NCBI GenBank assembly: GCA_016219175.1
Contig: JACRCD010000065.1
Location: 1-64,000, forward strand
Source: Deltaproteobacteria bacterium
GTDB lineage: Bacteria; Desulfobacterota; Desulfobulbia; Desulfobulbales; SURF-16
Length of the DNA: 64,000 nucleotides
Direction of reading: 5' to 3'
Part shown: in pieces, positions 29,021-38,533 of the stretch
Layout of the letters: the number at the start of each line of letters is the position of its first letter
Position numbering within the stretch: position 1 is the first letter of the stretch
Translations under genes and position numbers: made by a program
The notes under the pieces: generated by a model
What the model was told of the DNA's origin: nothing
What the model saw: the letters and a program-made list of their open reading frames with translations, nothing else
Database searches by the model: none

Positions 29021-29051
29021 AAAAAAAGGCAGGCGGGTTGCCCCGCCTGCC
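29021..29051 (-). terminator. Strong rho-independent terminator after the ten-haem cytochrome
   Basis: GGCAGGCGGG (29028-29037) and CCCGCCTGCC (29042-29051) form a perfect 10-bp stem with a 4-nt loop. On the minus strand it is followed by seven Ts (29027-29021). It serves the cytochrome gene and may also stop the converging transcript. Confidence 0.85.
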
Positions 29052-29084: not shown

Positions 29085-32000
29085 TTACGGAAGAGTGACA
29101 CTCAGATCCGCATCTTCAGCAGGTGTGAAGCTGGTGCTGATATGAGCGGAATCTACAATCTCAACACGGATACTGTAGTTGCCGCTTTTTGTGTAGGTAT
29201 GCTCTACGCCTGCGGTGAGAGCCATCGCATCGTTCACTGCGGTGCGTTTTCTGTCGCCCCAGTAAATGTAGGCCTTGACAGGAGTGGGGTTCTCAGGAAT
29301 CGCAATCGGCGGAATTGCAGCCGTCAGTGTCACGGTTTTGGTTGCAGCGTTAACCGTCTTGGTAAAGTCGGCTTGAACTGAAGGATTCTCGACGATGATG
29401 GCTTTAGCCGTCACCGCTTCAGCTCTGGTTTCGCCGGTTACGCTGTTTGTCACCCGTGCCACGGCCGGATAGTCGCCCTCTGTAGCATACTCAACGACCA
29501 CGGTGCCGGTGCCGTTGCCGCCAACAATCCCTTGTGCGGCGTCGTCACCAAAGGTGCCGTCGTTGTTGACATCCCATGAGAAAGTACAGGGGTCGGTAAC
29601 CGTCACGTCAGGTTCGCTTTCGATCGCGGCCGGCTCCATGTGGGTACAGGTAGAACGGCTGGCGTCCAGTGTAACCGTCAGGTCTGTATTCGCGCTGGAC
29701 AGGGCGCTGAGCTGAGCGGTAACGCTCACTTCGCTGGCCAGCTCGGCCTTGTTGGTGGTGGAGAAGCCGTAGGAGCCGTGGCAGGTGTTGGCTGAACAGG
29801 TGCCGGGGTTGCCCAGCGGATCCGGGGTGTAGGTAAAGGCTACCTGCACGCCGTTTTTGTCCAGCAGACCGGTTGCCGCGGAGACCAGGTTGTAGTCGAT
29901 GCCGCCGCTGCCGTTATCATGACAGTTGGTGCACTTGCCGAAGCCGGTACTCACGTGGCGGTTATGAACCGCATCGACACGGTTGTTCAGGTAGTCCACA
30001 TACTGGGTCCGGGTGGTAACCACGCCACCCTGGGTGGTCTGGATCGGCACCCGCAGAGTGGTTTCCCACAGGGCCTCGGAAAGATCGATGTTCCGCAGTG
30101 AGCTCGCGCCCCTGGCGACGAGAGCGATGGAGCGATTGTCGCCTTGCGACGGCTTGGCATACAGGGTCGGATGGAAGTCGCTCGGCTGCGTGCCGTTCAC
30201 CATGGTTAATGGTACGACATCGCTGGCTGCGTAGGTAAAGTTCAGGTCGCGCCCCTTCAGCTCGTAGGGGCCGTTGTAAAAGCCCTTGTCCGCGCCGTGG
30301 CAGTCGGTACAGCCGCCCGCGCCCCAGGCAGAACTGGCCGGGTTGACGTTGTGGTTGACCTTGAACATGACGCCCATGAAATTGAGCTTCAGGGTGGCGC
30401 CGGTGACGTTGATGCCGACGGTGGGCAGGTAAGACATCATCGCCTGCCGCTGGGCTTCAATTTCGGCTGCCGTAATGGTGCCGTCCTCGGTCAAGGCATG
30501 CAGTCCCACCGTCTTATTGGCGTCACGGATATGGGACGGGTTAACCGCGTCCATGCCGCCGGCCTGGCCGTCGGCATTGATGTCAACGCCGGTGTCGGTC
30601 TTGTCGCGCCAGAACATGGTGGTCAGGGCATTGGCCTTGATCAGCTTGCCACCCTGCCAGGCCAGGGCCAGGTTGTCCTCCATGGTCCGTTCCACATAGA
30701 GATTCTCGTGATCGGTGAGGCGGCCTTCCTCGTCAGCGCCGGTGCCGTCAACCATGGCGCCGCCGGTGCCCCACTCGTACAGGCTGTGATTACCCGAGCC
30801 CGCGGCCGGGGCCGGGCCGTGGCCCAGTTTGCGCACATGGCAGCCGGAGCACTCGATTATGTCGAGATGGCTCTTGTCTTTCACTCCAGCCACACCGGAC
30901 TGCAGAATCACGGAGGTCAGGCCCAGGGCCTCGTGCTTGGCAGTCGGGTCAACCGCGCCGTATCTATCGTAGGTTTCAGTGGCGGGTGCGGGCTTATGGC
31001 AGCCGGCGCAATTCTTGGTTGCTGTCCCGTCATTGTTATTCCACAGGGAACTGTAGGGGGCAACACCCTTGGCCGGGTCATGGCCGAGGGCGGTATTGGC
31101 CGCGCCGGTCCAAGTGCCGGGCACGGTACCTTCGCCCAGAATAGCGGTCATGTTTTGACCGTCATTTCTTTCGTGGCAGCCCATGCAGCCGATGGCGCCG
31201 TGGACGTCGGCCTCGTAGGGCACGCCCCAGTAATCGCCGCGTTTCTTCCAGTCAACGGCGTGCATATCCATATGACAGGTAGAACAATTTTCGCTTGGTG
31301 GAGCGCCCATGATGCGGCTTGAGACAAAACCGCTGAGTACGAGACGGTCATCGGCGGGATTGCCGGCTGTGCCGTTGTCATCGACAACCACCGCAGTCGG
31401 GTCATAAGCGACGACGGTACCGCTTGTGGCGGTTCCCAGGCCGGCGCCGGTTACGCGGGAGGCATCAAACTTGCCTTTGCGTATGGCCTCGGTTCTCGCT
31501 TCCCAGGAGAAACCTTCCATGTGGCACATGAGGCAATCCATCTCCAGAACGCCGGTTTGGCTATAGTCCTGGCTCAGAACCTCGCCGGTTACGCCATCCT
31601 CATTCTCATCATACTGATCGATGAAGTTGTTCCAGACGTTGTACCCGCTGAATGTCGCATCGCGCAGTTCGGTGCGTGGGGTCGTGGCGAGATTGGTGCC
31701 CGGCACTTTCGGCAGATACTCCATGGCGCCGCCGCCGACATGGCACTCGGCGCAATCGCGCATCATGCCGGCCATGGAGAGGTCAACTCCGGCCTTGAAG
31801 GATGCTTCGCTGCCGTAATCGTAAGGCGCGCTGAAGTCAACCGGATTGACGTTCTGTGCCCTGATGGTTCCTGTGGACTTGATGTAGAGATTGGTCGTGC
31901 CATCCGTCAGACTCAGTCTGTTGCCTGCGTCGTTAACCAGGTAGTCGACGCCTGCGTCATAGGCGCTGTTGCTGTTTGTGTCTTCATAAAAACCGGGAGA

Positions 32001-32393
32001 AGCCGGGGTAGCGCCTACGTTCGGGTAAAGTCTCGCCAACTGACGAGAGGAAGGCGGTCACCATTTTCCCACATGGCCCGGGGACGACACCCAGGGTTTG
32101 CCATTGGCTGCCTCGGCGTTCCAGGTGCCGTTTTTGTAGGGGTTAAAGCCAAAATGCTGATTGGCGCCGAGCTGGGCATGGTAGGAATGCCGCTCAATGG
32201 CGTTGTAGTCATGGCATGTCCCGCAGGTCTGTTTGGCGCTGTAGGCAGCGGTGCTTCCCGGCGCTAAAGCAGCGCCGTCCGCATCTTTTAGGACGATGGG
32301 ATCTGTGTGAGCTGCAAAAGCCTGGCTAGCCATCATCAGGGCCGCGGCGGCTATAGCGCTTGTCACCAGAGCGTTTTTATAGCATTTTTTCAT
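29085..32393 (-). CDS. Secreted ten-haem c-type cytochrome with in-frame UGA, probable selenocysteine
   Basis: The single reading frame of 1102 residues is broken only by TGA at 32058-32060 (codon 112). It begins with an AAGGAG site and a signal peptide (residues about 1-28, ending SQAFA). Haem-binding motifs are CGTCH (near 57), then after the UGA CAECH, CLMCH, CSTCH, CMGCH, CAGCH, CSGCH, CTDCH, CTNCH and CSANTCH (a CX4CH type), ten in all. The C-terminus (about 950-1100) holds PKD-like beta domains (YIYWGDRKRTAVND, HTYTKSGNYSIRVEI). It is likely periplasmic or extracellular and works in electron transfer. Immediately after the UGA is a SECIS-like hairpin (32031-32048). Read-through as selenocysteine would join signal peptide, first haem and nine others; the alternative is a nonsense mutation. 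Confidence 0.75.
32031..32048 (-). promoter_or_regulatory. Candidate bacterial SECIS element
   Basis: On the minus strand UCUCGUC-AGUU-GGCGAGA folds into a 7-bp stem (one G-U pair) with a 4-nt loop whose second base is G. Nine nt separate it from the in-frame UGA, and the loop starts 16 nt after the UGA. That fits the known bacterial SECIS placement of about 16-37 nt to the loop and a G in the first two loop bases. Confidence 0.6.
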
Positions 32394-32833
32394 TTTTCCA
32401 CTCCTTAGCTAACTATTGTTAACTTCTTCATTGGTCTCATTCTTGCCGGGCTGTGCACAACGGCTTGGGGAAACCGTCAAACTCAACACGAACAGCCGGC
32501 AAAAATTTCATTCTTGTAACACGCGTTAAAAGTTGGGGAAACTTTGCCAGATGCTACAGCAAAGGGTGTGCCGTGGTGGAAAAGTAATTGGATAATAGTG
32601 CTCAATGGAAAATTTTTGGCTAAATATATTTAGCAGATCGGCAGGTTAGATGATCATAATTTTTTTACGGATTTTTGACGTAAGCTCGGGTGGTTACAAC
32701 GTGGTATAGCCGGCAAGGGTGGCGAGATGGGGGAAATCGCCCGCTTGAGTGGGTCGTGTTACCCAATCAGGGGTTGTTTGGGTGAACTGCCCAATTTATT
32801 GGGGGAGGGATTTTGGCTAAAACCTAAAGACAT
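32394..32833. other. 440-bp intergenic region upstream of the cytochrome
   Basis: No gene was seen. It holds the 16-bp palindrome listed at 32619-32634 and several TGGGT/CCCAAT words, including the hairpin CCCAAT-TT-ATTGGG at 32790-32803. I found no convincing sigma-54 or sigma-70 boxes. Confidence 0.5.
32619..32634. promoter_or_regulatory. Perfect 16-bp palindrome, putative operator
   Basis: GCTAAATATATTTAGC is self-complementary over all 16 bases and lies about 225 bp ahead of the cytochrome start. A dimeric regulator site is the simplest reading; the regulator is unknown. Confidence 0.4.
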
Positions 32834-35157: not shown

Positions 35158-36894
35158 CTACTCCCTTTTGCCTTCTCCCTTCCTTTTGCATTCAACATCC
35201 TTGCTGTAATTCCGGTAAGCCGGATCATTATATTCCTGATGGCATTCCAGGCAGAGGCCGACGCGCAGAATGCGGGCCAGCTCCTCCTGGTTAAAGGGGC
35301 GAAGCTCTGGCCGGGAGCTCTTCTGCAGCGCTGTGCCGTCAATGGTCACAAAACCGTCCAGGGGCGGGGTTTGGCCGGCCTCGGTGCCGAGGCCCTGATC
35401 CGTCCCGGCAAAATGCCAGGTCCCGTTTTCCAGCCAGGCCGTGCCCTCGCCCAGACCAAGCACCTTGGTGGACTGGTGGCATTCCCGGCAGCCGCGACCC
35501 TTGGTCTGGGTGGTATGGGGGTTGATGGCCGCCATGGTCAGGCTGTTGAACTGCTTATCAGGTTTGCCCTTTTCGTCGGTCAAGGTGACAATGTCCTGGC
35601 AGCCAGGCGTGACAATGACCACCTTATCATTCCAGAGGGCCAGCATCGGTCTTTCATAGCGCAGATAGGAACGTCCCTCGTTCCACCAGCCCGGCGTCTC
35701 CTTCAGGGTCAGCTTGTCCAGATGGGTTTCGGTCATGTCGCGTTTGACGTGGCAGCCGTAACACTGGGGAACCCAGGGGGAATGGCAGGCCTCGCATCCC
35801 ACCCGCTTATGTCCGCTGAAATCGCAGACCCCTGCTTTCAGAGGTTTCAAGGGGTGTTTTTTGGCGGTGAGTTTGTTGACAAGCAGCCATGACTCACCTT
35901 CCTGCTTGATATTGTTCAGCTGTTCGTTCTTGCGGGTCCGTCCCGGTGGAAGCGGGAACTCGCTGCTCTGGGCCGAGCCGCCATGGCAGGTGGAGCAGCT
36001 GATTTCCAGCTGCTGCTCGTAATGGGCATAATTTGTGCCGTCGCCCATGATCTCGTTTCTGGTGTGGCAGTCGATGCAGGCCATGCCGCGCTGGTAATGG
36101 ATGTCCGGTGGCAGATCAAGATAAAAGCGGTCGCCCGGCAGTCTTTTTTCCGACATGTCGCCGTTTTTGTAAGGGGTGCCGTAGTTTTCGGACTCGTAAA
36201 CGCCGGTGTAGGAGATGCCGATCCTGCCGCTGCGGTTATGGCAGCGGACACAGTGGGCCACCGGAATTTTTTTGATGATCAGCGGGTGAATTTTCTTTGC
36301 CGCCTCCTCGGAGAGATTGGGGTCCCTGATAAAGTGGCAGGCGGTGCAGCCCCCGCCTTTTTCCCCGAAAAATCCGGGCAGATCCCCTTTCTGCTTCCAG
36401 AGATGACAGGTAGCGCACAGCTTGCGGTAATAGTCCAGGGCGAGCGAGGTCTGGCCGCTGTTCAGGAGTTGCTCCACCGAATAGTCGCCGTTCTGGTCCG
36501 GGGCCTCGCCCCAGTAATAAAGCAGGGTGGCCAGGATGCCGCGGTTGGTGGCCATCAGGGAGTTCTTCACCTTTTTTACGTCTGCGGCATGGCAGCCCTC
36601 GATGCCGCAGGTTTTCTCAACGAGCCGCAGATCGCCCGGGTTTTTGACAATCCCCGCATGCGCCTTTTCTTTGTCAATGGCCAGGGAGTCGCCCAGATGG
36701 CAGGGAGAGCAGCCGATCACCAACCGGTCATGGGCGCTATCGAGCTTTTCCGTGGTGTGGCAGGAGAGGCACATTTCCACCCGGCCCGAGGTAGTCTGGA
36801 AAAGCCTGTCGGGGCGTGTGGTCATGTTTTCCCGGATGACCAGCAGCAGAACGGTGAGCAGGAGAAAGAGAAGGGCAAGCCTGGAAGAGGACAT
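35158..36894 (-). CDS. Membrane-anchored twelve-haem c-type cytochrome
   Basis: This protein of about 578 aa starts at the ATG at 36892-36894, one nt after the nadE stop. An N-terminal hydrophobic segment (about 5-22, LALLFLLLTVLLLVI) is a signal anchor. Haem motifs in order: CLSCH, CSPCH, CGIEGCH (a CX4CH type), CATCH, CTACH, CVRCH, CIDCH, CSTCH, CEACH, CYGCH, CRECH and CLECH, twelve in all. The C-terminus is Lys/Glu-rich. It should sit on the periplasmic face and relay electrons, but partner and substrate are unknown. No haem-free catalytic domain is seen. Confidence 0.88.
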   Translation of the reverse strand: MSSSRLALLFLLLTVLLLVIRENMTTRPDRLFQTTSGRVEMCLSCHTTEKLDSAHDRLVIGCSPCHLGDSLAIDKEKAHAGIVKNPGDLRLVEKTCGIEGCHAADVKKVKNSLMATNRGILATLLYYWGEAPDQNGDYSVEQLLNSGQTSLALDYYRKLCATCHLWKQKGDLPGFFGEKGGGCTACHFIRDPNLSEEAAKKIHPLIIKKIPVAHCVRCHNRSGRIGISYTGVYESENYGTPYKNGDMSEKRLPGDRFYLDLPPDIHYQRGMACIDCHTRNEIMGDGTNYAHYEQQLEISCSTCHGGSAQSSEFPLPPGRTRKNEQLNNIKQEGESWLLVNKLTAKKHPLKPLKAGVCDFSGHKRVGCEACHSPWVPQCYGCHVKRDMTETHLDKLTLKETPGWWNEGRSYLRYERPMLALWNDKVVIVTPGCQDIVTLTDEKGKPDKQFNSLTMAAINPHTTQTKGRGCRECHQSTKVLGLGEGTAWLENGTWHFAGTDQGLGTEAGQTPPLDGFVTIDGTALQKSSRPELRPFNQEELARILRVGLCLECHQEYNDPAYRNYSKDVECKRKGEGKRE

Positions 36895-36895
36895 G

Positions 36896-38533
36896 TTATT
36901 CCCTGAATTTCTGGGCAATGGGATAGCGGCGGCCGAAGCCGAAGGCCTTGGAGGTGACTTTCAACCCCATGGCGGCCTGGTGCCGCTTATATTCATTGCG
37001 CTTGATGCGGCGGACGATATCCTCCACCATGTCTCGAGCATACCCCCGGGCGACGATGTCTTGAATGGTGGCATGTTCCTCCAGGTAGGCCCGCAGGATG
37101 GGATCGAGCATTTCGTAAGGAGGCAGGTCATCCTGGTCTTTCTGGTCCGGGGCCAGCTCGGCGCTGGGGGCTCTCGTGATGGTCCGCCAGGGAATGATTT
37201 CCTTTTCCCGGTTGATAAAACGGGCCAGGGCATACACCATCTGCTTGGGGACATCGGCAAGCAGCGACAGGGCGCCGGCCATATCGCCGTACAGGGTGCA
37301 GTAGCCCACCGCCATTTCCGATTTGTTGCCGGTGGAGAGCAGCAGGGCGCCGAACTTGTTGGCCAGGGCCATGAGCAGGGTGCCGCGGATGCGGGCCTGG
37401 ATGTTCTGCTCGGTCACATCCTCGGCAAGACCGCTAAAAAGGGGGGACAGGGTGTGAAGGCAGGAGGTGAAGATGCCCGTGATGGGGACGGTTTCAAGCC
37501 GGATGCCCAGGTTTCCGGCCAGCGTTGCCGCGTCTTCAATGCTTTCCCTGGAGGTGTATGGCGAAGGCAGGGCGATGCCCATGACGTTTTCAGGGCCCAG
37601 GGCCTGGCAGGCGATGGCGCAGGTCAGGGCCGAATCGATGCCGCCGCTCAGTCCCAGCAGAACCCTGGAAAAACCGCATTTTCTGATGTAATCCCGGCAG
37701 CCCATGGCCAGGGCCTGATGGATGAGGCCTGTTTCATCCTCAAGTTCAGTGGTTCCGGCCGGGCAGAGATTTTCCGTGTCAACAACCAGCATGTCCTCGA
37801 CAAATGAGCCGGCCTGATGGCAGAGCTGCCCGTTTTTGCCAAGCACCAGGCTCGCGCCGTCAAAAAGCACCGAATCCTGGCCGCCGACCTGATTGACATA
37901 GACAAGTGGTACGGCATATTTGCGGCAGAGCTGGGAAAAAACTGTCCGCCGCAGCTGTTGTTTGCCCTGGGTAAAAGGGGAGGCGGCAATATTGATGAGC
38001 AGATCGAGCCCGGCAAGGTTCAGGTCAGCCACCGGATTGGCCTGATAAAGGGGGTGGGGAAAACTGTCCTCATCGTTGAAGATATCTTCGCAGATGGTGA
38101 TCCCCAGGCGCAATCCCTTATAAAAGAAGGGCTCACTGGCCAGACCAGGTTCAAAATAACGGGATTCGTCAAAAACATCATAGGTGGGCAGGAGACGTTT
38201 ATGGGCGCGAAACAGGATCCGGCCATCCTCAAAGAGCAGGGCGCTGTTGTGCAGGGGTTTGCCGGTGTCGCCGCTATGCCGGGTGATCGCCCCGCAAAGC
38301 ACGGTGATGCCTTTCGTCTCGGCGACAAGGGCGGCAATGGCGCTCTCCTGTTGGGACAGGAAGGCTTCGTGTTCCAGGTAATCCTGGGGCGGGTAGCCGC
38401 TGACGGCCAGCTCCGGAAAAACGGCCAGCCCGCATCCGGCGGTTCTGGCCGTTTCGATGCCGGCGGTAATCCGCCGGATATTGCCGGTAAAATCGCCGAT
38501 TACAGGATTTATTTGCACCAGGGCAAGTTTCAT
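36896..38533 (-). CDS. nadE: Glutamine-dependent NAD+ synthetase
   Basis: This 545-aa two-domain enzyme has an N-terminal nitrilase-type glutaminase and a C-terminal NAD synthetase. The glutaminase has Glu in [16 protein letters not shown], Lys near [12 protein letters not shown] and the nucleophile Cys in [11 protein letters not shown]. The synthetase has the P-loop [13 protein letters not shown] and [20 protein letters not shown]. It converts deamido-NAD to NAD using glutamine. It shares an operon with the cytochrome downstream, with stop and start one nt apart. A 223-bp gap precedes it and contains CATGAG/CCATGAG tandem words at 38575-38602. Confidence 0.96.

Follow-up and report, generated by a model that had tools for sequence, protein, structure and literature searches.

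The window (the whole 64,000-nt stretch of DNA analysed) carries on its minus strand a gene for a predicted secreted multihaem c-type cytochrome, which starts with ATG at 32393 and ends with TAA at 29087-29085 (Table 1). In a first-pass annotation, the TGA at codon 112 had been described as the only interruption of this frame, preceded by a signal peptide and the first CxxCH. Rereading of the frame confirmed the single stop, and both upstream features were seen, with the CxxCH at residue 57. Downstream of the TGA there are eight CxxCH motifs and one CX4CH (CSANTCH, residue 866). The ten haems counted in the first-pass annotation hold if the CX4CH is included (nine CxxCH plus one CX4CH) but not on CxxCH motifs alone. 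Read through codon 112 as Sec, the frame encodes 1102 residues, and the product would be one secreted protein in which a core of eight haems is followed by a C-terminal haem pair and PKD-like domains.

Table 1. Features of the predicted selenoprotein gene and its surroundings in the window
Feature	Position	Strand	Basis
Predicted selenoprotein gene, secreted multihaem c-type cytochrome	29085..32393	minus	lone TGA in open frame; TGA at this codon also in full-length relatives
Ribosome-binding site AAGGAG ahead of ATG 32393	32401..32406	minus	sequence
Signal peptide, residues 1-27 (MKKCYKNALVTSAIAAAALMMASQAFA), without lipobox	32313..32393	minus	read from the sequence by eye
UGA codon 112, very probably read as selenocysteine	32058..32060	minus	TGA shared by 58 distinct homologous genes
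Bacterial SECIS hairpin TCTCGTC-AGTT-GGCGAGA, loop AGUU at 32038-32041	32031..32048	minus	fold; inner 5 bp kept in the family; frozen codons, compensatory pairs
Haem 1 motif CGTCH (residues 57-61)	32211..32225	minus	sequence
Haem 2 motif CAECH (residues 214-218), followed by VGGG	31740..31754	minus	first family alignment, in which Cys, His and GGG are invariant
Lys384 (VDWKKRG), aligned with OTR Lys153	31242..31244	minus	profile alignments and column table
Eight-haem core, haems 1-8, residues 57-699	30297..32225	minus	profile matches to eight-haem and OTR families
C-terminal haem pair CTNCH and CSANTCH	29778..29933	minus	sequence
PKD-like beta-sandwich region, residues 1012-1087	29133..29360	minus	Pfam PKD hits weak and below cut-off; collagenase PKD domains matched by profile
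Intrinsic terminator: G+C-rich inverted repeat GGCAGGCGGG/CCCGCCTGCC, then T run	29021..29051	minus	read from the sequence by eye
ExtM-like multihaem cytochrome, between nadE and hisD	35158..36918	minus	309.6 bits to NF040943, cut-off 800

The gene stands apart from its neighbours, with 440 bp to rsmG upstream and the terminator downstream. The ExtM-like cytochrome gene is located three genes upstream on the same strand, with hisD and rsmG in between. The gene neighbourhood implies no function. In three relatives, an eight-haem cytochrome partly similar to hydrazine dehydrogenase (67-80 bits, cut-off 900) is encoded near the Sec gene (L003:257-1531, L105:130-1368 and L124:8157-9494).

The source genome possesses the machinery for selenocysteine, for which the first-pass annotation had proposed a search. 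All four genes are present: selA (540.6 bits), selB (364.9 bits), selD (375.6 bits, with an in-frame TGA of its own) and selC encoding tRNA-Sec (score 68.9, anticodon TCA, that is UCA).

By searching 97 related genomes, we found homologues with one TGA at the position of codon 112. Among 395 genomes of the phylum Desulfobacterota, a profile of the Sec region matched 76, which belong to 48 of 246 genera; every homologue comes from this phylum because only this phylum was searched. Reading out the loci, we obtained 58 distinct homologous genes with TGA in the motif G..G.[WYF]-U-PPS.RQ[LF] (hereafter the UPPS family). Sec sites are classically recognised by Cys being the most frequent of the sense codons found there. 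At this site, the 77 rows used for the tree comprised 54 Sec, 11 Cys, 6 Ser and 6 others, so that both residues by which the first-pass annotation had proposed to judge the codon, Cys and Sec, occur there. Sec and Cys rows were interleaved within one well supported clade, and the tree requires at least 9 changes of state. Gln, Leu and Trp were also found at the site among homologues; as these and the Ser forms demonstrate, some lineages can dispense with the chalcogen. Purifying selection was evident on both sides of the TGA (dN/dS about 0.15-0.33), with dN of about 0.25-0.48 against dS of about 0.8-2.6 in the downstream part. Because the TGA occurs at the same place in genera across the phylum and the flanking sequences on both sides show such low dN/dS, it is far beyond chance.

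The Cys and Ser homologues have one unbroken frame across the Sec site, which bears on the question of whether the TGA separates two translationally coupled genes, a possibility left open for the cytochrome ExtKL by Fujita et al. 2007 (PMC1914089). A separate downstream gene would have to begin at a TTG within RQLA, and its product would lack a signal peptide even though the haems it carries have to be exported. On account of the single-frame Cys and Ser homologues and the headless downstream part, we rejected the two-gene arrangement, which we consider very improbable.

As pointed out in the first-pass annotation, a 7-bp hairpin with an AGUU loop begins 9 nt 3' of the UGA; folding reproduced it, and its codons and pairing proved to be conserved in the family. 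Folded as a single sequence, the hairpin of the window is unremarkable (z about -1) and not decisive alone. In Sec genes with RQLA, however, QLA was encoded by CAG-TTG-GCG in 39 of 39 cases, versus 5.4 TTG and 6.1 GCG expected from the codon usage of the same genes. In the Cys genes with RQLA (two tallied), Leu was encoded by CTT and CTG, and Ala by GCC and GCA; the Leu codon of the remaining Cys and Ser genes was mostly CTG, CTC or CTT. A stem with an AGNU loop was found in all 58 TGA genes, its closing pair positioned 15 nt after the UGA in 51 and 21 nt in 7. Stem pair 3 (CG, AT or GC) was paired in 55 of the 58 and stem pair 4 (TA, GC or CG) in 53, counts that carry no combined P value because related genes are not independent. 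The variation at these two pairs is compensatory change. The hairpin is thus constrained in TGA genes and unconstrained in Cys genes. It lies right after the UGA, has a G in the apical loop and is under selection, as a bacterial SECIS should.

These data also bear on two other interpretations of the TGA. If it were a true stop, generated by a recent nonsense mutation or an assembly error or residing in a pseudogene, one stop would be left in an otherwise open frame, as in the window; but the TGA is shared by 58 homologous genes, the sequence past it is under purifying selection, and a synonymous constraint is tied to it. We therefore rejected a true stop or pseudogene as extremely improbable. 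Equally improbable is decoding of the UGA as Trp or by general read-through. One homologue does have TGG at the aligned place, but the common replacements are Cys and Ser, the genome contains the Sec machinery, and constraint on the hairpin is seen in TGA genes but absent from Cys genes; read-through as Trp was rejected for these reasons.

We conclude, with a probability of roughly 96%, that UGA codon 112 is read as selenocysteine, because the machinery, the recurrence of TGA with Cys as a replacement, the constraint on the SECIS and the purifying selection all indicate this. SelB and tRNA-Sec would decode the UGA at the hairpin just downstream. The first-pass annotation had called selenocysteine probable, and each of the tests listed there that ran came out in its favour.

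In profile comparisons, the match of the window family to a wider family with eight haems spanned 512 columns (E 2.5e-74) and brought the U columns of the two into register. The eight-haem family in turn matched the family of octahaem tetrathionate reductase (OTR, TIGR04315) with a probability of 99.6% over haems 4-8, and the window family matched it with 97.5% over haems 4-7, with Lys384 placed on the OTR Lys. Against TIGR04315 itself (cut-off 375 bits), the window protein gave no match and the relatives gave 110 bits at most. Since neither family reached the cut-off, the window core is a distant relative of the OTR family rather than a member. In the N-terminal parts of the two octahaem families, the C/U columns were unpaired in both local and global profile alignments. 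The first-pass annotation had put the Sec at the base of the first haem region; its position can now be given more precisely as between haems 1 and 2 of an OTR-like eight-haem core.

The window protein had no match in PDB by sequence, profile searches returned only NrfA-type haem stretches or PKD domains, and tblastn against plasmids gave no match. Structure models had a mean pLDDT of 43 for the window core and 61 for an eight-haem relative (about 36 in the Sec loop of the latter); a fold search of PDB with this poor eight-haem model returned proteasome chains and other unrelated proteins at Z of 4 or less and was uninformative.

In OTR, counting on 1sp3_A places the active-site Lys at Lys153 in GGGGDAVKHGD, reportedly the residue given in the structure paper. 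This residue is invariant in the OTR alignment, and both profile alignments set it on the second Lys of D.KKRG, which is Lys384 of the window protein. In the eight-haem alignment, all 17 rows whose Sec site holds C, U or S retain the Lys, and all 4 rows with Q, L or W there have R or N instead. That Lys and Sec/Cys are lost together hints at a catalytic haem, but this is only suggestive because the four Q/L/W rows fall in about two lineages. OTR has Cys64 (counted on 1sp3_A) between haems 1 and 2, and Sec112 occupies the same place in the order of the window core. From the chain order and the aligned Lys, with the N-terminal profiles unaligned, Sec112 may be the equivalent of OTR Cys64, a residue that is reportedly close to the active-site haem in the 2004 structure paper. 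The fusion of one eight-haem relative with a cytochrome b of the formate-dehydrogenase-gamma type (125.8 bits, cut-off 115.85) points to quinone-linked respiration in the branch of that relative.

The active-site haem of OTR is ligated by a Lys outside the CXXCH motifs (PMC12285233). The Sec selenolate of the window protein would most likely be situated on the open side of a Lys-ligated haem, where it could bind or attack the substrate. The substrate would most plausibly be an S-S bond or the sulfane of a sulfur compound, which we favour because TsdA forms a covalent sulfur adduct on a Cys located at its haem (PMC5146829), and the haem chain might act as a wire that supplies or takes up electrons. 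TsdA and SoxAX, sulfur enzymes with Cys-ligated haems, resemble the proposed site in having a chalcogen residue at a catalytic haem; TsdA, however, is a dihaem protein with no sequence relation found to the window protein, and the analogy is mechanistic only. For the window protein, we infer geometry, catalysis, substrate, direction and location. The balance tips slightly towards an OTR-like catalytic role of Sec112 beside the Lys-ligated haem.

If the Sec is real, it could instead be a structural or electron-transfer ligand, such as an axial selenolate tuning one haem, in a protein that is an extracellular electron conduit and no enzyme. The protein is secreted and has two extra haems and PKD-like domains; with its ten-haem architecture and size, it could be a pure electron carrier. 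It shows a weak match to the MtrC/MtrF domain (PF22113, 32.7 bits, cut-off 30), and the Sec site is occupied by Ser, Gln, Leu or Trp in some homologues. Against such a role, the resemblance of the core to OTR and the co-occurrence of the Lys with C/U/S argue for a catalytic haem, and the relative fused to a quinone-type cytochrome b looks as a respiratory reductase would. We regard this main alternative, with the Sec in a non-catalytic role, as rather unlikely. Taken as a whole, selenocysteine with an OTR-like catalytic role is our best explanation and is likely to hold, the selenocysteine part weighing most.

The OTR family shares with the window family the eight-haem order, a Cys/Sec between haems 1 and 2, the aligned active-site Lys and the profile match (Shewanella OTR, 1SP3). 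Its motif NNF-[C/U]-I..RCTSCH differs from GKW-U-PPS.RQL of the window protein, as do the SECIS sequences, and the window protein has two extra haems and PKD-like domains beyond OTR. In many TIGR04315 octahaem genes of the phylum (L135, L138, L141, L142, L144, L146-L150 and L152), a TGA stands in place of the Cys codon seen in others (NNF-[U/C]-I), at the position corresponding to Cys64 of 1SP3; a near-perfect hairpin, TGGTGC-AGGT-GCACCA, often follows it. The Sec form of TIGR04315 was entered as GenBank-annotated in a 2026 inventory of prokaryotic selenoproteins (PMC13188914). As a tentative proposal, to which we give somewhat less than even odds, a family of haem enzymes across the phylum may have an encoded Sec that works directly at a Lys-ligated c-type haem, where the selenolate would either ligate the haem or attack the substrate as a nucleophile to give a covalent adduct, and this selenium-haem catalytic site may have been reached separately in the UPPS and OTR families.

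Sec cytochromes as a kind are already known. ExtKL (GSU2937-2936; NF040886), found in Geobacter and relatives, has been known as a predicted Sec cytochrome since 2007 (PMC1914089). Like the window family, it is a multihaem c-type cytochrome with one in-frame UGA in the same phylum; unlike it, ExtKL has five haems, with the U past the last haem in AGHxIPDG-U-PxxNR. The window protein showed no match to NF040886 up to E 0.1, and the source genome has a separate ExtKL gene (G000:C37:12840-14126, L126; 578 bits) with its own TGA. The OmcA/MtrC decahaem cytochromes of the outer surface resemble the window protein in having about ten haems and probably being exported, but the window protein exceeds the PF22113 cut-off only barely, lacks a lipobox and gave no match to TIGR03507 (OmcA/MtrC decahaem). 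To our knowledge, no Sec has been reported in OmcA/MtrC cytochromes. The GSU2204 family (NF041027), known here from its inventory entry alone, also consists of Sec proteins tied to extracellular electron transfer, but has an outer-membrane barrel of the MtrB/PioB type and no multihaem core.

The UPPS family is absent from the 2026 inventory (PMC13188914), no NCBIfam model scored above cut-off for the window protein or for the c-type cores scanned, and no paper describing the family was found in the part of the literature searched. The family thus appears to be uncatalogued, although individual members may already stand annotated as selenoproteins in protein databases, outside this search. Automatic annotation would yield two pieces from each such gene, a short fragment and a headless cytochrome, and the UPPS family is therefore probably mis-annotated. 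If our interpretation is right, one family would be added to the 119 selenoprotein families and subfamilies of the inventory (PMC13188914), and selenium supply would be tied to multihaem respiration in Desulfobacterota. With Sec, Cys, Ser and chalcogen-free forms, nature would then provide versions of a single active site on which the role of selenium beside haem could be tested.

The C-terminal module of the window protein (29085-29969, residues 809-1102; haem pair and PKD-like part) is found again, at about 38-49% identity, in a number of further genes of the source and related genomes (for example, in G000:C17, C28 and C70). Large proteins with 15-16 haems are encoded at L109 and L118; in that of L109, a Sec-bearing eight-haem module is joined to a second module closer to OTR (TIGR04315, 110 bits). 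A Cys-bearing relative with 5-13 haem motifs ahead of the Cys was found at L100, L105:5037-7853, L106 and L107, and at L105 it directly adjoins a Sec-bearing one.
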